Below, piece by piece: positions 3,214 to 12,115 of a DNA stretch of 13,515 nucleotides. Position numbers and translations under genes: made by a program. The notes under the pieces are model-generated. The model did not search any database. It had not been told where the DNA came from and saw only the letters and a list, made by a program, of their open reading frames with translations. The stretch is from positions 1 to 13,515 of the forward strand of contig MGDH01000015.1 of the NCBI GenBank assembly GCA_001790855.1. Direction: 5' to 3'. Each line of letters starts with the position of its first letter. Position 1 is the stretch's first letter. The stretch is from Candidatus Schekmanbacteria bacterium RIFCSPLOWO2_02_FULL_38_14. GTDB lineage: Bacteria > Schekmanbacteria > GWA2-38-11.

Positions 3214-4380
3214 ATGAAGCGTGAAAATTTTCTTCCCTTTTCTCTGCCTACTATTGAAGAAGATGAGATTTCTGAAGTTGTGGACTCTTTGCGTTCAGGA
3301 TGGATAACTACCGGTCCTAAGGTAATAAGGTTTGAAGATGATTTTAAAAAGTATATTGGCTCACCTCATGCAATAGCTGTTAACTCAGGAACAGCAGGGC
3401 TTCACATATCTCTCATGGCTTCAGGAATATGTGACGGAGATGAAGTTATCACAAGCCCGATGACCTTTGCAGCTACCATAAACACTATTGTTTTGCAGAG
3501 AGCAAAACCGGTTTTTGTTGATATAGACCCGGATACGTTTAATATTGATACTGAAATAATTGAAAAGAGAATAACCAGAAGGACAAAAGCGATAATCCCA
3601 ATCCATATTGCAGGGCAACCCTGCAATATGGATAAAATCATGAATATTGCTAAAAAATATAATCTTATTGTTATTGAAGATGCTGCTCACGCAGTTGGAA
3701 CTGAGTACAAAAAAATAAAAATTGGCAATATCAGCGATCTTACTGTTTTCAGTTTCCACCCAATAAAAAACATGACTACAGGTGAAGGCGGAATGATAAC
3801 GATAAAAGATGAAGTGATTGCTGATAAACTCAGGCTATTGAGGTTTCACGGAATAAGCAAAGAGGCATGGAAACGCTACGGGAAAGAAGGTTCCCCTCAG
3901 TATGAAATCCTCCTGCCCGGATTAAAATACAATATGCTTGATATCCAGGCAGCAATGGGAATTCACCAGCTAAAAAAACTGGACAGATTTATAGAAACAA
4001 GAAAAAATATTGCGCAGAAATACGACAAGGCATTGAAAGACATTCCAGAAGTAATCATTCCCGGAAGAGTTGATTATGAGTGCCTCCATGCCTGGCATCT
4101 CTATATAATAAAACTCAGGCTTGAAATGCTCAAAATCAGCAGGAATGAATTTATTGAAGAATTAAAAAAGGAAAATATCGGAACAGGCATACATTTTACC
4201 GCTGTTCATCTTAACCCCTTTTACGAAAAAGAGTTTGGGTTTAAAAGAGGGGATTTTCCAAATGCTGAATTTGCCTCTGACAGGATAATCTCTATTCCGC
4301 TTTACCCGCGAATGAAGGATGAAGACGTTGATTACGTGATAGACAAAATAAAAAAGATTGTGAAATTAAACAAGAGATAA
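3214..4380 (+). CDS. arnB: ArnB-like UDP-4-keto-pentose aminotransferase
   Basis: This is a PLP-dependent DegT/DnrJ/EryC1-family sugar aminotransferase of 388 residues, about the length of E. coli ArnB. It would convert UDP-4-keto-pentose to UDP-L-Ara4N using glutamate in the cytoplasm. Similarity to ArnB is seen by eye along the whole length: FLPFS near the start, SGWITTGPK (28-36), HAIAVNSGTAGLHISLMA, GDEVIT (75-80), RTKAIIPIHIAG, VIEDAAHAVGT with D156 (ring nitrogen contact) and FSFHPIKN with K185 as the Schiff-base lysine. Later blocks include LKYNMLDIQAA, HAWHLYIIK, GTGIHF and the C-terminal IPLYP. A weak AAGG at 3201-3204 precedes the ATG. It is the first gene of a same-strand run ordered like arnBCADT. 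The coding region contains a perfect 15-bp inverted repeat at 3601-3633. Related PseC/WecE-type activities are less likely given the neighbours. Confidence 0.9.
   Translation: MKRENFLPFSLPTIEEDEISEVVDSLRSGWITTGPKVIRFEDDFKKYIGSPHAIAVNSGTAGLHISLMASGICDGDEVITSPMTFAATINTIVLQRAKPVFVDIDPDTFNIDTEIIEKRITRRTKAIIPIHIAGQPCNMDKIMNIAKKYNLIVIEDAAHAVGTEYKKIKIGNISDLTVFSFHPIKNMTTGEGGMITIKDEVIADKLRLLRFHGISKEAWKRYGKEGSPQYEILLPGLKYNMLDIQAAMGIHQLKKLDRFIETRKNIAQKYDKALKDIPEVIIPGRVDYECLHAWHLYIIKLRLEMLKISRNEFIEELKKENIGTGIHFTAVHLNPFYEKEFGFKRGDFPNAEFASDRIISIPLYPRMKDEDVDYVIDKIKKIVKLNKR
3601..3633 (+). repeat. Perfect 15-bp inverted repeat inside the arnB-like gene
   Basis: The left arm ATCCATATTGCAGGG (3601-3615) and right arm CCCTGCAATATGGAT (3619-3633) are exact reverse complements separated only by CAA. 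The RNA would form a 15-bp hairpin with a triloop in the middle of the coding sequence. The codons specify I-H-I-A-G-Q-P-C-N-M-D, a stretch conserved in the ArnB family (H-x-A-G-x-P...D), so it is real coding sequence. There is no T-run after it, so it is not a standard intrinsic terminator. Confidence 0.9.
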
Positions 4381-4419: not shown

Positions 4420-5388
4420 ATGGAAGAAAAACAGGAAATAACAGCAGATAAAAAGAATCATCAATCACCTTACCTTAGCATAGTAGTCCCTGTTTGCAAT
4501 GAACAGGAAAACCTCGCTCATCTCTACTCAAGATTAAAAAAGACCCTTGATAGCCTCAACTCATCATATGAAATCATTTTCATTGATGATGGCAGCAGGG
4601 ATAAGTCATGGGACATCCTTGAGGATTTCAGGAACAAGGATAATCTTATAAAAATATTTCAATTTAACCGCAACTATGGTCAGCATACAGCAATTCTTGC
4701 AGGTTTTGAACTGTCAAGAGGAGAAGTAATTGTAACCATAGACGCAGACCTTCAGAACCCTCCTGAAGAAATTCCCAAGCTTTTAAAAGAGATTGAAAAT
4801 GGCCATGACGTTGTTGGAGGATTGAGAAAGAACAGAAAAGACCCTTTTTTAAGAAAATTTATATCCAAGGTAGGTAATAAGGTTCTTGCAAAAATAACTG
4901 GAATAAAGCTTAAAGATTACGGGTGCATGTTGAGGGCTTACAGGAAAGAAGTGGTAAAAAGGATATGCGATGTCAATGAGTTCTCAAGTTTTTTTATTCC
5001 GGCGCTTGCTTACACATATGCCAACAATCTGATAGAAATCGTTGTAGAACATAATGAGAGGCTTGAGGGAAAATCAAAATATAACTTATTAAAACTTGCA
5101 AAGCTTAATTTTGACATTCTGACAAGTTTTTCTCTTATACCAATTCAGATTATAACACTTTTAGGCTTCTTTATTGGTCTGACCGGAGGAACATTTGGGG
5201 GAATCCTTATCCTTTTAAAAATATTTTTCAATGCATCAAACGGATTTCTTACCCTTATTTCTATCCTTGCAGCGTTTACAGGACTTCAGGTTTTCCTTCT
5301 TGGATTAATAGGTGAATATATTGGAAGAATCTATGTTGAGGTAAGGAAAAGGCCCCGTTATATTATCAACGAAAAAAATAATTCTTGA
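4420..5388 (+). CDS. arnC: ArnC-like undecaprenyl-phosphate aminosugar transferase
   Basis: This is a GT2-family membrane glycosyltransferase of 322 residues, as in E. coli ArnC. It would transfer the formylated aminopentose from UDP to undecaprenyl phosphate on the inner face of the membrane. The GT-A domain starts with LSIVVPVCNEQENL (19-32). It continues with IIFIDDGSRD, then FNRNYGQHTAILAGF, closely matching ArnC's NRNYGQHSAIMAGF. DADLQNPPEEIP supplies the D108-x-D110 metal motif, and DYGCMLRAYR (166-175) is another near-exact ArnC block. Two membrane helices follow (about 240-267 and 277-297), ending GLIGEYIGRIYVEVRKRPRY. No strong Shine-Dalgarno sequence is seen before the ATG, 39 bp after arnB. 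The generic alternative, a dolichyl-phosphate-mannose-type GT2, is unlikely given block identity and gene order. Confidence 0.92.
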   Translation: MEEKQEITADKKNHQSPYLSIVVPVCNEQENLAHLYSRLKKTLDSLNSSYEIIFIDDGSRDKSWDILEDFRNKDNLIKIFQFNRNYGQHTAILAGFELSRGEVIVTIDADLQNPPEEIPKLLKEIENGHDVVGGLRKNRKDPFLRKFISKVGNKVLAKITGIKLKDYGCMLRAYRKEVVKRICDVNEFSSFFIPALAYTYANNLIEIVVEHNERLEGKSKYNLLKLAKLNFDILTSFSLIPIQIITLLGFFIGLTGGTFGGILILLKIFFNASNGFLTLISILAAFTGLQVFLLGLIGEYIGRIYVEVRKRPRYIINEKNNS

Positions 5389-5390
5389 AA

Positions 5391-6326
5391 ATGCGAATAT
5401 TAGTTTTTGGTTATCACAATGTTTGCCATGTATGTCTTGAAGAACTTCTCAGACTTGATGAAAACGTAATTGGTATTGTAACCCACAGCGATGACCCAAA
5501 TGAAAATATATGGTTTAAATCAGTTTATGAATTAGCTGCTAAAAACAATATTCCTGTTTTTTCCCCTTCTGATGTAAAAGAAGACAGTTTTTATGAAACA
5601 GTAAAGAAACTTGATCCGGAGATAATTTTTTCATTTTACTATCGCTATATTATACCTGAGAAGATTCTGAAAATACCTCGCTATGGTTCCATAAACCTCC
5701 ACGGTTCCCTGCTTCCAAAGTACAGAGGGAGATGCCCTGTTAACTGGGTATTGGTAAATGGCGAGAAAATAACAGGTGCGACACTTCACTATATGGAAAA
5801 AAGTCCTGACACAGGAGATATAATCTCTCAGAAAGAGGTGCCAATTTCAGATAATGACGATGCCTTTACACTCTTTAATAAAATTACTGAAGCAGCAAAT
5901 ATCCTTTTTAATGAAACATGGCCTCTCATAAAATCAGGGAAATCTAAGAGGATTCCCCAGGACCCGGCAAAGGCAACATATTTTTCAGGAAGGAAACCTG
6001 ACGACGGACTGATAGACTGGAAAAAAAGTTCAGAAGAAATTCATAACCTGATACGTGCAGTCACACACCCCTATCCCGGAGCATTTACCTTTTATAAAGG
6101 GAAAAAGCTATTTATCTGGAAATCAGTATTGATATCAGATATAGATAACTGCAATAAACTCTCAGGAACAATCTTAAAAATTGATAGTGTAAACGGGATG
6201 GTTGTCAAAACAGGTACTGATTGCATTGGAATTAAGTCCCTTCAATTTCAGGAAGAAGAAGAGATAAGAGAAAAAAAACTATATAAATATTTCTCTCATA
6301 CAGAGGGAAAACTTCTCGGAAATTAA
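5391..6326 (+). CDS. arnA: Stand-alone ArnA-type formyltransferase
   Basis: This is the N-10-formyltetrahydrofolate-dependent formyltransferase matching the N-terminal half of E. coli ArnA; it would N-formylate UDP-L-Ara4N. I chose ATG 5391 (311 residues) over an in-frame TTG at 5385. MRILVFGYHN then aligns with the ArnA start, and the catalytic residues fall at N102 and H104 (in INLHGSLLPKYRGR) and D140 (in SPDTGDII), the E. coli numbering. FSFYYRYIIP matches ArnA's FSFYYRHLIY. The C-terminal third is the OB-like domain, beginning near FSGRKPDDGLIDW and HPYPGAFTFY. The gene lies 2 bp after the arnC stop, implying coupled translation; no clear Shine-Dalgarno is visible. Unlike E. coli ArnA, it ends without the dehydrogenase domain, which is the next gene. 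The symbol denotes the domain, not the full bifunctional protein. Confidence 0.9.
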   Translation: MRILVFGYHNVCHVCLEELLRLDENVIGIVTHSDDPNENIWFKSVYELAAKNNIPVFSPSDVKEDSFYETVKKLDPEIIFSFYYRYIIPEKILKIPRYGSINLHGSLLPKYRGRCPVNWVLVNGEKITGATLHYMEKSPDTGDIISQKEVPISDNDDAFTLFNKITEAANILFNETWPLIKSGKSKRIPQDPAKATYFSGRKPDDGLIDWKKSSEEIHNLIRAVTHPYPGAFTFYKGKKLFIWKSVLISDIDNCNKLSGTILKIDSVNGMVVKTGTDCIGIKSLQFQEEEEIREKKLYKYFSHTEGKLLGN

Positions 6327-6346: not shown

Positions 6347-7312
6347 TTGAAAGTATTAATTACAGGAGGAGCAGGTTTTCTGGGGTCCCATCTTGGAGAT
6401 GCGTTTCTCGCAAAAGGCGATGAGGTCTTTGTTCTTGACCAGGCAAAGGATTTTAAAATCAGGCATAATCTTGGAAACCCAAAGTTCCATTACTTCCAGG
6501 ACTCAATCCTTAACGAAGAAATACTCGACAGTCTTGTTTTTAAAACAGACCTTATTTATCATATGGCTGCTGTGGTCGGTGTGGAACACTATGTTGGAGA
6601 CCCATATAATGTCTTAAATGTAAATATCAACGGAACGCAGAACGTCCTGAAGGCTGCTTTCAAATACAACAAGAAGATTATATTCACTTCCACCTCTGAA
6701 GTTTATGGCAGGAACCCGAAGGTTCCATTCAGCGAAGACGACGACAGGGTTCTTGGTTCCACAAGAATAGACAGGTGGTGCTATTCCACATCAAAGGCAG
6801 CAGGAGAACATTTCTGCTTTGCCTATTATAAAATGGGTTTGCCTGTTGTAATTTTAAGGTATTTCAATGTTTACGGACCAAGACTTGATAAAATTGATGT
6901 GGGAAGAATATTAACTATTTTTATGGGGCAGATTTTAAGAAATGAACTCCTCTCTGTCATAGGTGACGGGATGCAGACGAGGTGTTTTACTTATATAGAC
7001 GACGCAATAAAGGCAACCGTCGCAGCAGGGTTATTAAAGGAGGCTGAAGGAAAGATATTCAATGTCGGGGATGAAAAAGAAACTACAATTAAAGAACTGG
7101 CAGAGAGAATGATAAAAATCTCAGGAGCAAATACTACCATAAAATATGTGACAAAAGAATCAGTATACGGAGACAGCTATGAAGATATACAAAGGAGGGT
7201 TCCAAAGGTAGAATTAATGAACAATATTTTAAAAGTCCACGCAGAAACTTCTCTTGACGATGGGTTGAGAACGACAATCGAATGGTTTAGAGCCATAGGG
7301 AAAAACTTTTAG
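6347..7312 (+). CDS. NAD-dependent UDP-sugar dehydrogenase/decarboxylase (ArnA C-domain-like)
   Basis: This is an extended short-chain dehydrogenase of 321 residues, likely the UDP-glucuronate oxidative decarboxylase step that yields UDP-4-keto-pentose. The start is a TTG at 6347, fixed by AGGAGG at 6334-6339. A Rossmann motif GGAGFLG lies at 7-13, the catalytic STSEVYG at 115-121 (S117, E118), and Y146-x3-K150. YEDIQRRVP at 278-286 places R284 at the position of ArnA R619; S117 and E118 match ArnA S433 and E434. DxRW before Y146 and YFNVYGPRLD also resemble ArnA. It lies 20 bp after the formyltransferase gene and fills the role of the missing ArnA half. A UXS-type decarboxylase making UDP-xylose, or a GalE-like epimerase that shares the TSEVYG motif, are the alternatives; overall similarity to ArnA is moderate. 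Confidence 0.8.
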   Translation: MKVLITGGAGFLGSHLGDAFLAKGDEVFVLDQAKDFKIRHNLGNPKFHYFQDSILNEEILDSLVFKTDLIYHMAAVVGVEHYVGDPYNVLNVNINGTQNVLKAAFKYNKKIIFTSTSEVYGRNPKVPFSEDDDRVLGSTRIDRWCYSTSKAAGEHFCFAYYKMGLPVVILRYFNVYGPRLDKIDVGRILTIFMGQILRNELLSVIGDGMQTRCFTYIDDAIKATVAAGLLKEAEGKIFNVGDEKETTIKELAERMIKISGANTTIKYVTKESVYGDSYEDIQRRVPKVELMNNILKVHAETSLDDGLRTTIEWFRAIGKNF

Positions 7313-7324
7313 AAACTGGAAAAG

Positions 7325-8221
7325 ATGAACCTCAGCATAAAAGTTGATGTGGATACCTATCAGGGGATGAAAGAAGGAGTTCCTAACCTTTTAGAAATTT
7401 TCGGAAAGATGAAAATCAGGGCTTCATTTTTTATTGCTATGGGCCCTGACAATTCAGGAAAAGCAATCAAAAGAATTTTCAGAAAAGGTTTTTTAAATAA
7501 AATGCTCCGCACAAAAGCCCCGAGTGCATACGGGATAAAAACTCTATTATACGGCACTCTCCTCCCGGCACCTCTTATTGGAAAAAACTTTGATGCTCTG
7601 TTTCTGGAAATAAAAAATTCAGGGCACGAAGTCGGTATTCACGGGTACGACCATGTAAAATGGCAGGATGAACTGGATTTCATGAATTATAACGAATTTA
7701 AGGATGAGTTTAAAAAAGCTGTTGACGAATATATACGCATATTCAAAACCAACCCCACCTCATCAGCTGCCCCTGCATGGAAATGTAATGAAATAAGCTT
7801 TTCAATTGAAGATGAAAACAACCTTCTCTATCACAGCGACACAAGAGGGGAGCATCCCTATTTCGTTAAATTCTCATCTTCAATTTTCAAAACCCTTGAG
7901 ATACCAACTACCCTTCCAACGCTTGATGAGATTTACGGTCTTGAAGGCTTCTCAGAAAATAACATAATCCCCTTCTATCTCTCTCAGCTTAATAACGACA
8001 AATTGAATGTTCTGACCATCCATGCTGAAATGGAAGGAAAATGGAAAAAAGAGCTTTTTGAGGAATTTCTAAAAAAAACATCTGAACTTAACTGCAATTT
8101 TATTACACTGGAAAAAGCGGCGGGGAAATTAATGGCTTCAAAAGAAAATATTCCTGTCTGCGAAGCATCGCAGTCGGTTATACTTGGAAGAAGCGGCAAG
8201 GTCTTCTGCCAAAAACCCTGA
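7325..8221 (+). CDS. arnD: ArnD-like deformylase (polysaccharide deacetylase family)
   Basis: This is a 298-residue CE4/NodB-fold hydrolase like ArnD, which removes the formyl group from undecaprenyl-phosphate-L-Ara4FN and so makes the attachment irreversible. Visible matches are KVDVDTYQGMKEGVP (6-20), with D8 and D10 as catalytic and metal aspartates, and FFIAMGPDNSG. FLNKMLRTKAPSAYG parallels ArnD's FLWKMLRSNAASLYG. HEVGIHGYDHVKWQ carries metal ligands H106 and H110, and SDTRGEHP, IPTTLPTLDE and TIHAEMEG (H233) follow. This is a specific match to ArnD rather than to general chitooligosaccharide deacetylases. The ATG lies 12 bp after the dehydrogenase gene. Presence of ArnD implies that formylation and deformylation both occur. 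Confidence 0.92.
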   Translation: MNLSIKVDVDTYQGMKEGVPNLLEIFGKMKIRASFFIAMGPDNSGKAIKRIFRKGFLNKMLRTKAPSAYGIKTLLYGTLLPAPLIGKNFDALFLEIKNSGHEVGIHGYDHVKWQDELDFMNYNEFKDEFKKAVDEYIRIFKTNPTSSAAPAWKCNEISFSIEDENNLLYHSDTRGEHPYFVKFSSSIFKTLEIPTTLPTLDEIYGLEGFSENNIIPFYLSQLNNDKLNVLTIHAEMEGKWKKELFEEFLKKTSELNCNFITLEKAAGKLMASKENIPVCEASQSVILGRSGKVFCQKP

Positions 8222-8255: not shown

Positions 8256-10202
8256 ATGGAAGAAAACTCAATAAATTCTCACGAAAATAGAATAATCTCT
8301 TTATTGCTTATAATCAGCATAATACTCCTTGGCACTTTCCTTCGGATTTTTATGTTAGGAGATATTGGATTTTGGGGAGATGAGATCCAGTCAGTATCAT
8401 TTGCTAAAAAAAATATATCAACACTGCTGCAGTACATCTCGAAAACAGAATTCTCCCCTCCCTTAAACTACATAGTCCTCCACTTTGCATCTTATTTTGG
8501 GAAAAGCGAATTTATATTCAGGCTTCCTCTTGCCCTTTCAGGCATAATAACAATTTATGTAATTTACAAACTTGGCAGCCTGCTTTTTACATCTAAAGAG
8601 GGACTGGTAAGCGCATTTTTGCTTGCAATCTCCCCTTTCCATACCCTCTATTCGCGCGATGCCAGAATGTATTCACTGTTCACTCTTTTCTCTTTATCTT
8701 CATATCTGTTTTTTTATCTCGCATCAAAAAATAATAAATTGTTTCTATGGATATTATATTCTTTCAGCATCACCCTTTCTCTTTACACTCACTACTTTAT
8801 GGTTTTTGTAATATTTTCCCAATTTATCATTGTCTTTATCTTTATCTCTGAAGGCGCTCAGTTTTTTGGACGAATAGCCTCAAAATTCTTTTTATCACTC
8901 GCTTTTTCTTTCCTGCTCTTTCTACCATGGATTCCATCATTGATCCGACAGTTATCTATCAATCAGCAATTCATCACAAAAGTATCAGTATCAGGAGTTC
9001 TCCTGTGGATAATTGATGAAACTTTCAGATGGCTTGGAACAGGAACATTACCCGGAATGTTTTTCTTCTTGCTGATTGTTGCCTCAGGAATTCTTTTTTC
9101 TATTAAAACCTTCAGGCACCAGACCTTCCTCCTTTTATCTGCATTCTCAATCCCAATACCTTTTACAATTTTTCTTGTAATATTTCGCAACTGGCTTTTT
9201 CAGCCAAGATACATCCTTTTCATACTCCCATTTTATTTAGTCCTTGCTGCGAGAGGAATATGCGAAACAGGAACTAGATTAAAACGCTTTAAAATAAAAG
9301 AATCTTTATCAATTTTTCTGCTGCTAGTAACTATATTCTATCTTTCACTTTCTCAGGTAGAAAATATCTTCTCCCTTGAAAAAGAAAACTGGAAAGATGC
9401 TGCTTCATATATCTCCAGAAATATGCACCACAAGGAACTTCTTATTGTTCAGCCGTCATGGGGTTTCTGGGCACTTGATTATTACAAGAGCTTGAATTAT
9501 TCTGATACATCGTTAGCAGATGAGAATATAAAAAAAACCGGTGTATGGTTTGTAAAACCCTATGATGGCAAGCCAGGAAAAGATTTAGAGAAAACCACTG
9601 GTTCACCTTTTACACTGAAAAGAAGCTTTAAAGGATGGAATACAATAAATATTTGGTATTCCTCTTCAAATCTCGAAGAATTAAACTTTCCATTTTTATC
9701 GTTTCGCAATACAAATAAAATGGAAAATAAATATGATAGAGAATTTAAAATGGACTGGTCATGGTTTTCATCATCTGGCAAATCTCCAAAGTATTCATTC
9801 TCAGAAAATTCTTTTATCCTGGTTTCAAAATCTCCGTTAAAAAACTATCTGCTTTTATCATCTCCGATTCTGCTTTCAGATTCTGACTCAGCTATAAATC
9901 ATAAATCTTTTAATGGCTTATACTGCTCAGCGAGAATCAAAGCATCAAGCCGCAAAATATTACCCAGAATGGACTTATACTTTTATAACAAAAATAAGGA
10001 AAATATATCTATTGCTGGATTGGAAACTAAAGGTTTTATGACAGGCGATTTCACCCACTGGGGATGGATAAGCGAACCTGTAAATATTCCCAGCAATGCG
10101 TTTTTCGTTAAAGTAGCTTTTGAAATACCTGAGATTGATAACGAAGGCGAATGGGTGATGTTTGATAATATTAAATTCTACGGTTTTAGCTCCAGTCCTT
10201 AG
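8256..10202 (+). CDS. GT39/ArnT-like membrane glycosyltransferase with C-terminal beta domain
   Basis: This is a 648-residue polytopic transferase of the PMT/ArnT superfamily that would use a polyprenyl-phosphate sugar on the periplasmic face. After a first membrane helix (about 12-33) comes FWGDE (39-43), the acidic loop motif of this superfamily, with D42/E43 the likely catalytic pair. SPPLNY (67-72) and SRDARMYSL (133-141), common in bacterial GT39 proteins, follow. Many membrane helices run to about residue 366, then a soluble part begins near NWKDAASYI. The last ~150 residues are beta-rich and end GEWVMFDNIKFYG (631-643), resembling the end of jelly-roll carbohydrate-binding modules; E. 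coli ArnT lacks this exact arrangement as far as I recall. It is last in the arn-like operon, so L-Ara4N transfer to lipid A is the best guess. Another acceptor is possible, so I withhold arnT. No strong Shine-Dalgarno is seen. Confidence 0.75.
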   Translation: MEENSINSHENRIISLLLIISIILLGTFLRIFMLGDIGFWGDEIQSVSFAKKNISTLLQYISKTEFSPPLNYIVLHFASYFGKSEFIFRLPLALSGIITIYVIYKLGSLLFTSKEGLVSAFLLAISPFHTLYSRDARMYSLFTLFSLSSYLFFYLASKNNKLFLWILYSFSITLSLYTHYFMVFVIFSQFIIVFIFISEGAQFFGRIASKFFLSLAFSFLLFLPWIPSLIRQLSINQQFITKVSVSGVLLWIIDETFRWLGTGTLPGMFFFLLIVASGILFSIKTFRHQTFLLLSAFSIPIPFTIFLVIFRNWLFQPRYILFILPFYLVLAARGICETGTRLKRFKIKESLSIFLLLVTIFYLSLSQVENIFSLEKENWKDAASYISRNMHHKELLIVQPSWGFWALDYYKSLNYSDTSLADENIKKTGVWFVKPYDGKPGKDLEKTTGSPFTLKRSFKGWNTINIWYSSSNLEELNFPFLSFRNTNKMENKYDREFKMDWSWFSSSGKSPKYSFSENSFILVSKSPLKNYLLLSSPILLSDSDSAINHKSFNGLYCSARIKASSRKILPRMDLYFYNKNKENISIAGLETKGFMTGDFTHWGWISEPVNIPSNAFFVKVAFEIPEIDNEGEWVMFDNIKFYGFSSSP

Positions 10203-10383: not shown

Positions 10384-11106
10384 TCATATATTGATTTTCC
10401 ATGGAATATAATAGGCTAAAATCTGCAAATTATTTGAAAATATCAGAAGCCCTATTATAACCAGCAACAATCCAGAAATTATTTCAATCTTTCTAAAATG
10501 TTTTTTTATGGATTTGAAAAGTTTAAGGAATGTGTTCATTGCAATTGCAGTAATTAAAAACGGAATCCCAAGCCCTAAAGAATAGACCGACAGGAGTAAA
10601 ATCCCCTGCAAGACTGTATCCCTTGTAGAAGCAAGGGCTAAAATTGCGCCAAGAATCGGACCAATGCATGGAGTCCATCCAAATGCAAAGGCAAATCCAA
10701 CAAAAAACGAGCCTGCAATCCCGTAAGTTTTTTTCCTGACATTAATCCTTTTTTCAATATCAAGAAATCTTATCCTGAAAATTCCCATCGTATGAAGACC
10801 AAATATTATAATTATTATTCCTGCAAGCTGAGTAAAAAGTGATAATTTTGAAAGCAAAAACTTTCCGGCTATTGTGGCAGATGCACCAAGCACCACAAAT
10901 ACAATGGAAAATCCTGCTATAAAAAAAATGGAATTCAAAGTAACTTTGTTTAAATTCTTTTTACCTTCCACTCCTTCTTTGAACTCTTCCATTGATATGC
11001 CTGATATAAAGGATATATAAGCAGGTATGAGCGGAAGCACGCACGGCGAGATAAAAGAAAATATTCCTGCAGCAAAGGCTGTAATAAACTCAATGTTATT
11101 ATTCAC
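10384..11106 (-). CDS. ccdA: CcdA-type thiol-disulfide transmembrane transporter
   Basis: This 240-residue, about six-helix inner-membrane protein of the DsbD/CcdA family carries electrons from cytoplasmic thioredoxin to periplasmic thiol proteins, often for cytochrome c maturation. Two half-repeats are visible, each with its redox cysteine: FISPCVLPLIPAYIS (C22) and GWTPCIGPILGAIL (C147). Length is typical of CcdA, without the extra domains of full DsbD. The start is GTG at 11106, with AAGGA eight bases before it. The last 8 bp of the upstream channel gene overlap this start, implying translational coupling. No thioredoxin-like partner (ResA/TlpA) or cytochrome c gene is in the window, so the actual client is unknown; the Tat- and Sec-exported redox proteins at the left end are far away and not obviously linked. 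Confidence 0.92.
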   Translation of the reverse strand: MNNNIEFITAFAAGIFSFISPCVLPLIPAYISFISGISMEEFKEGVEGKKNLNKVTLNSIFFIAGFSIVFVVLGASATIAGKFLLSKLSLFTQLAGIIIIIFGLHTMGIFRIRFLDIEKRINVRKKTYGIAGSFFVGFAFAFGWTPCIGPILGAILALASTRDTVLQGILLLSVYSLGLGIPFLITAIAMNTFLKLFKSIKKHFRKIEIISGLLLVIIGLLIFSNNLQILAYYIPWKINI

Positions 11107-12115
11107 CTACATATTCCTTTAATCTTTTAACTTCATCTTTACTTGCTAAAATAACCAGTGTTGAATCTGACTTAATTATTATATCAGGTCCGGGATTGTA
11201 AATAAAATCATCTCCTTCAGATTCACGGATTGCAAGCACAGGTATGCCAAACTCTTCATAAACGCCTATCTCTTCTAACCTCTTTCCTATGGCTTTAGAT
11301 CTCTCAGAAATTTTCACTTCTTCAAATCTGTATATCTCATCTCTCTCTCTCAGCATTTTATCAAGGAAAGTAACAACATGAGGCCTTACCATTTCAGAAA
11401 CCATCCTTAATCCGCCAATGGCGTTCGGAGACACTACTGAATCAGCTCCTGCTTTAATCATCTTTGACCTTGATTGCGGATCAATCACTTTTGCAATAAT
11501 TCTGATATTCTTGTTCAGTTCTCGCGCTGTAACTGTTACAAACAGATTGTCTTTATCATCAGGAAGGGCTGTCGCAATCCCTTTTGCGTGCTTTATGCCT
11601 GCTTTCAGAAGTATATCATCATCAGTTGCATCTCCTATTATGTAATGGAATTTCCCCTCTTTTTTAATCCGCTCAAAATTTTCATCCTCCTTGTCTATAA
11701 CTACAAAGTCTCTCCCTGTTACAAGCAGTTCTTCAATTATAAAAAACCCTGTTGAACCTGCACCGCAAACAATGAAATGTCCCCTTTTTTTCTCAATCTC
11801 TTTTTCCATTTTTTTCCTCCATAAAACCTTTGTAAGGTCTCCCTCAACAATAAAAGCTGTAATAGTACTCATTCCATAAAGAAGAACACCCATTCCTGAA
11901 AATATAAGAAAAATTGTATATATCCTTCCTGCAGGGTTATGGCTTAAATCAAATATTTCACCATACCCAACAGTTGCAATAGTAATAATTGTCATATAAG
12001 CACAATCAAGAAGACTCCAGTAATTGTCTGTTGCTATTCCTACAATCATATAGCCTGATGTTCCAATAACAATTACTGCAACTATTAAAAAAACAGCCTG
12101 AAATATCCGTTGCAT
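11099..12115 (-). CDS. Two-TM potassium channel with RCK (TrkA-N/TrkA-C) domains
   Basis: This 338-residue Kch/MthK-like K+ channel has a first helix at about 5-26, a pore helix and selectivity filter TIATVGYGE with T48-V-G-Y-G52, and a second helix at about 66-90. After a charged linker (KKMEKEIEKKRG) comes an RCK/TrkA-N Rossmann domain, HFIVCGAGSTG (G118, G120, G123), with VVIDKEDENFERI and IIGDATDDD, which would bind nucleotide or another ligand. A TrkA-C domain occupies about 255-336. The architecture is the standard single-pore plus RCK subunit that assembles as a tetramer. AGGAGAGG a few bases upstream supports the ATG. It overlaps the ccdA-like start by 8 bp. The ligand that gates it cannot be told from sequence. 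Confidence 0.93.
   Translation of the reverse strand: MQRIFQAVFLIVAVIVIGTSGYMIVGIATDNYWSLLDCAYMTIITIATVGYGEIFDLSHNPAGRIYTIFLIFSGMGVLLYGMSTITAFIVEGDLTKVLWRKKMEKEIEKKRGHFIVCGAGSTGFFIIEELLVTGRDFVVIDKEDENFERIKKEGKFHYIIGDATDDDILLKAGIKHAKGIATALPDDKDNLFVTVTARELNKNIRIIAKVIDPQSRSKMIKAGADSVVSPNAIGGLRMVSEMVRPHVVTFLDKMLRERDEIYRFEEVKISERSKAIGKRLEEIGVYEEFGIPVLAIRESEGDDFIYNPGPDIIIKSDSTLVILASKDEVKRLKEYVGE

Follow-up and report, generated by a model that had tools for sequence, protein, structure and literature searches.

An arn operon in a Schekmanbacteria genome closes with a GT-C glycosyltransferase carrying a predicted C-terminal jelly-roll domain

The aminosugar Ara4N is known chiefly from lipid A and Kdo, which it modifies. 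ArnB, ArnA, ArnC and ArnD produce undecaprenyl-phosphate-Ara4N, which is flipped and then used by a periplasmic GT-C enzyme. The DNA analysed here, referred to as the window, comprises 13,515 nucleotides at the start of contig 15 of Candidatus Schekmanbacteria bacterium RIFCSPLOWO2_02_FULL_38_14 (draft genome of 2.68 Mb, 99% complete). It holds an arn operon in which a transferase with an additional C-terminal domain stands where the enzyme that modifies lipid A is usually found. The question raised by this locus is which acceptor receives the sugar, and what the additional domain contributes to its transfer. The window genome is denoted G000 and the other three genomes of its order G001 to G003. 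The features discussed in the following paragraphs, all on the + strand, are:

3214..4380, +: arnB-like aminotransferase (best NCBIfam match ArnB, E 8.5e-133, under the curated cut-off)
4420..5388, +: arnC-like undecaprenyl-phosphate Ara4FN transferase (best NCBIfam match ArnC, E 9e-96, under the curated cut-off)
5385..6326, +: formyltransferase half of ArnA, as a separate gene (NF005414, 357 bits, over the cut-off; it also matches positions 1-304 of the NCBIfam ArnA model, E 1.3e-96)
6347..7312, +: decarboxylase half of ArnA, UDP-xylose-synthase-like (closest in NCBIfam: UDP-xylose synthase and the C-half of ArnA)
7325..8221, +: arnD-like deformylase (best NCBIfam match ArnD, E 3.3e-69, under the curated cut-off)
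8256..10202, +: GT-C (PMT_2/GT39-type) glycosyltransferase with C-terminal jelly-roll domain, 648 aa
8256..9665, +: GT-C core, residues 1-470 (PMT_2 match, hydropathy count, homologues without the extra domain)
8379..8384, +: D42-E43, candidate catalytic acid of the GT-C fold, after the first transmembrane segment
9735..10190, +: jelly-roll domain, residues 494-645, predicted to be periplasmic (AlphaFold2 model, Foldseek and VIA-align matches, conservation)
10041..10070, +: TGDFTHWGWI motif, residues 596-605, the most conserved stretch of the domain

The order arnB, arnC, split arnA and arnD, followed by the transferase, places the latter in an arn (Ara4N) operon. Most of the arn genes score under the strict equivalog cut-offs, and their names are those of the best NCBIfam match. 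Genes for the ArnE/ArnF flippase were not seen among the open reading frames of at least 80 aa in the window. Upstream of the operon, positions 8-2885 hold a ferredoxin-type gene (assigned by eye) and genes for a secreted DUF6599 protein and a DUF362 protein; in G002, too, the arn operon is preceded by a DUF362-like gene, also assigned by eye (L030:37-1134). CcdA-like and potassium-channel/TrkA-like genes (by eye) lie convergent with the operon at 10384-12115, and such a pair is also found near the transferase gene in G001.

Pfam assigns residues 69-226 of the transferase to PMT_2 with 61.9 bits, above the gathering score of 26.1, and the enzyme thus belongs to the PMT_2/GT39-type GT-C transferases. 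A simple hydropathy count gives 11 hydrophobic segments in the core, the same number in all three orthologues, and these are followed by an ordinary extracytoplasmic tail of about 90 residues, which begins with ENWKDA. The pair D42-E43 is invariant in the three orthologues and, by its place in other GT-C enzymes (PMC11127046), would be the position of the catalytic acid.

The earlier note had described a GT39/ArnT-like core in an arn operon, of which the PMT_2/GT-C family and the arn genes stand, but the enzyme is not ArnT. The transferase gives no match to the ArnT equivalog profile NF009784 at E <= 1, and a search of its own genome with the ArnT model (E <= 0.001) does not return it. Furthermore, RYA and YFEKP in the first periplasmic loop, which are functional motifs required in the ArnT proteins of Burkholderia and Salmonella (PMC5377068), are absent; DEIQSVSFA and EFSPPLNY are found in their place, with equivalents in both orthologues. 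The position in the arn operon, the PMT/GT-C clan and the DE after the first transmembrane segment are shared with ArnT, whereas these differences, together with an extra domain of 150 residues, set the window transferase apart. In seven other arn clusters, located around arnD homologues in other phyla (L125, L126, L127 with two copies, L129, L133, L135, L136), the transferase matches the ArnT model at E 1.8e-34 to 4.9e-152. The arn clusters L124 and L126 (G361, G094) have a second arnC-like gene after arnD. Judged on its sequence, the window transferase is not ArnT.

Since the transferase is not ArnT, an acceptor other than lipid A becomes more plausible, although the missing signatures leave room for lipid A in this role. 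Lipid A should exist as a possible acceptor, because each of the four genomes of the order has genes for LpxC and for the Kdo-transferase N-domain family. The enzyme could be a functional substitute for ArnT that transfers Ara4N to lipid A or to the Kdo inner core, with the jelly roll steadying the enzyme or binding core sugars of the same molecule. We regard this as rather unlikely, given that both ArnT motifs and the model match are missing and that G002 encodes a separate ArnT-like protein (C6:65602-67212, L165; 497.6 bits, cut-off 567), about 44 kb from the arn operon of a genome that also holds the jelly-roll transferase. Its weight comes from the position of the transferase, which replaces ArnT as the last gene of a nearly complete arn operon, from the lipid A genes, and from Burkholderia ArnT, which can itself act on an inner-core sugar (PMC5377068).

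In the reading that we prefer, the C-terminal domain would hold an acceptor glycan. This domain is an addition to the GT-C core and separate from it. A full-protein profile finds homologues in 36 of 386 genomes, all four genomes of this order among them. Most of the core homologues from outside the order are open frames of about 460-560 aa, and most end near residue 470; none of them, in the 386 genomes, matches the profile past about position 495. Relatives of the domain itself were found in these genomes only within its own order, plus one weak, frame-broken match in G189, and none was found in IMG/VR. Residues 490-648 have no family in Pfam, NCBIfam or PHROGs (two weak PHROGs matches both concern other members, not the window domain), and a sequence search of the PDB returned no match for the domain. 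The domain is kept in two related genera, and TGDxTxWGWI is retained both in the G001 orthologue (660 aa, 52% identity over the full length) and in the G002 orthologue (589 aa, 36%). Over the domain, identity to these two other complete copies is 40% and 32%, and 22 columns, including those of TGDxTxWGWI, are invariant among the three; this conservation places the domain beyond chance. In a third genus, represented by G003, the same operon is present and the contig breaks off within the core. GT39-type proteins of 644-672 aa in G038, three in tandem (L033:5070-11001 and L034:8038-9996), carry different-looking C-terminal extensions of their own, and C-terminal modules on GT39 enzymes may have been gained more than once.

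The earlier note had also read residues of about 490-648 as a beta-rich region with the pattern of a jelly-roll sugar-binding domain. The pattern is present as quoted (HWGWIS, with three residues between W602 and S606; VNIPSNAFFVKVAF; GEWVMFDNIKF), and the region is real, being all-beta in two independent single-sequence models and conserved in G001 and G002. AlphaFold2 without an alignment predicts an all-beta structure for residues 494-645 (pLDDT 61.9, pTM 0.55), and a poorer one, again all-beta, for the longer construct of residues 469-648 (pLDDT 51). With the model of residues 494-645, Foldseek returns 86 PDB matches at E <= 0.001, headed by glycan-binding jelly rolls: TmCBM61 (E 1.5e-5), the hyaluronan-binding module 4d0q (TM 0.61), CBM4 and CBM16 are among the top matches, as are phage tail-fibre and depolymerase domains. 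VIA-align gives a Z of 11.3 over 133 residues at 2.7 A to the surface glycan-binding protein 7kwb and a Z of about 10 for CBM15, CBM4-2 and CBM61; viral capsid jelly rolls score about as high, as do Stig cyclases. Structures of EmbC, AftD and ArnT are absent among the fold matches listed, which excludes none of them. Structure prediction and fold search recover the jelly-roll topology. An identity with the ordinary periplasmic domain of ArnT/PMT enzymes was rejected, given the jelly-roll model and the fact that core homologues stop short of this region.

As single-sequence models go, the jelly roll has good support, and a fold of the carbohydrate-binding-module type is likely, by structural match on a model of middling confidence. 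The resemblance to carbohydrate-binding modules claimed from the sequence is therefore one of fold, shared by the predicted model with CBM4, CBM16, CBM61, CBM15 and CBM27, and not one of sequence, as no relationship to Pfam CBM_4_9 or to any other Pfam family is detectable. CBM_4_9 (PF02018), the only sequence-defined family tested in depth, was rejected (hhalign 0.4%, no hmmscan match); since all 12 positive controls, three-sequence CBM_4_9 subsets of equal depth, reached 96-99.6% against the rest of the family, the domain is not a recognisable member. Glycan binding is only suggested by the company of the fold matches, and no glycan-binding-site residues could be mapped on the domain. Jelly rolls are widespread and functionally diverse.

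Characterised extra modules of GT-C enzymes, namely those of EmbC, AftD and ORF12, bind the acceptor glycan (PMC11127046). In ORF12 of Citrobacter youngae O1 (GT136), a GT-C core (residues 1-502) is followed by a module (503-652) which binds unmodified O-antigen LPS (PMC11127046). The C-terminal domain of EmbC binds acceptor analogues, and mutation of its conserved tryptophans lowers acceptor binding and LAM extension, with loss of activity (PMC3044687). The closest architectural precedent for the window transferase is ORF12, as both consist of a GT-C core of about 500 residues and a C-terminal beta-sandwich module (503-652 in ORF12, 494-645 in the window), and both are encoded with the genes that make a lipid-linked pentose donor, which in the window would be Ara4N. 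ORF12 differs in that its donor is undecaprenyl-phosphate-ribofuranose and its module is described as immunoglobulin-like; H179 and R318-Y319 of the window protein recall its H174 and R349-Y350 by position only, not by alignment. EmbA, EmbB, EmbC and AftD are likewise GT-C enzymes with carbohydrate-binding modules, which contact the acceptor (PMC3044687, PMC11127046), but they are mycobacterial and use a D-arabinofuranose donor and arabinan acceptors, and the C-terminal domain of EmbC is formed by two subdomains. A GT-C core with an acceptor-binding module is thus an architecture already known from a few sugar transferases; what is new here is that the last gene of an arn operon encodes a transferase other than ArnT, and that this enzyme bears a jelly roll which is unclassified and confined to the order.

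A structural or protein-protein role for the jelly roll, in which it would bind no sugar, is in our estimation improbable. Glycan binders dominate the matches of the better model, and the modules of EmbC, AftD and ORF12 speak against it; the fold lists also hold furin P-domain, TNF-family, viral capsid and cyclase jelly rolls with non-sugar roles, and the ORF12 core without its module was still active in the tests made (PMC11127046), both of which would fit such a role.

In G000, G002 and G003, arnD directly adjoins the transferase gene (in the last of these the transferase is cut by the contig end), and this order is kept across two families. The arn contig of G001 stops about 430 bases past arnD, within a gene that belongs to another, lineage-specific GT-C-like family; a piece of that same family, beside the transferase, also forms the end of the transferase contig. 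A single operon of arn genes and transferase in G001 is plausible, but the likeness of the two contig ends does not establish it, because these genomes contain several such GT-C-like genes. A join of the contigs by way of a homologous G038 protein did not succeed for one of the halves; both contig ends are explained by a paralogue family in G000, which does not prove that they join. The GT-C-like family, mostly of 730-840 aa with a repeat-rich C-terminal half (YYYEGIG.., ..KGIGYLLF..), has six matches in G000 and is nearly absent outside the order:

G000, C20:28792-29592, C21:42228-43058, C24:56204-56986, C10 (two) and C9: GT-C-like repeat family
G001, C30/C16, and G002, C8/C7 (L168, L172, L169): members of this family

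That the transferase uses another lipid-linked sugar and stands in the arn operon by chance, which its broad GT39 core (also found without arn genes, and with no tested feature that identifies the donor) would permit, is very unlikely, because G000, G002 and G003, which span two families, all keep the transferase directly after arnD.

We return to the reading in which the domain serves the choice of a glycan acceptor, for which donor, sugar binding and acceptor are inferred from the operon and from the enzymes named above. The upstream arn genes would make the undecaprenyl-phosphate-Ara4N donor, and the transferase, by its gene position, would be the natural user of it. Facing the periplasm, the GT-C enzyme would move Ara4N to a glycan rather than, or besides, the phosphates of lipid A. 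The jelly roll lies downstream of the last transmembrane segment and would be exposed on the periplasmic side, where it probably binds a sugar chain on the outer side of the inner membrane; by analogy with the C-terminal modules of EmbC, AftD and ORF12, it would most likely hold the acceptor glycan near the active-site groove. This glycan could be the LPS core, O-antigen or another exported polysaccharide. Taken as a whole, transfer of Ara4N by the GT-C enzyme from undecaprenyl phosphate onto a glycan that its jelly roll holds has, in our view, about an even chance of being the correct explanation.

A wider version of this idea is put forward tentatively: the locus may encode a dedicated, ArnT-independent branch of Ara4N use, in which a GT-C enzyme, equipped with an unclassified glycan-binding module of its own, attaches Ara4N to a polysaccharide or to an outer LPS glycan, in a lineage that may keep ArnT for lipid A as well. 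The domain, of about 150 residues, is small and expressible and thus offers a handle for finding which glycan is concerned. A different GT-C transferase, with a module of the acceptor-binding type, at the end of an arn operon suggests that the donor pathway has been turned to another glycan.
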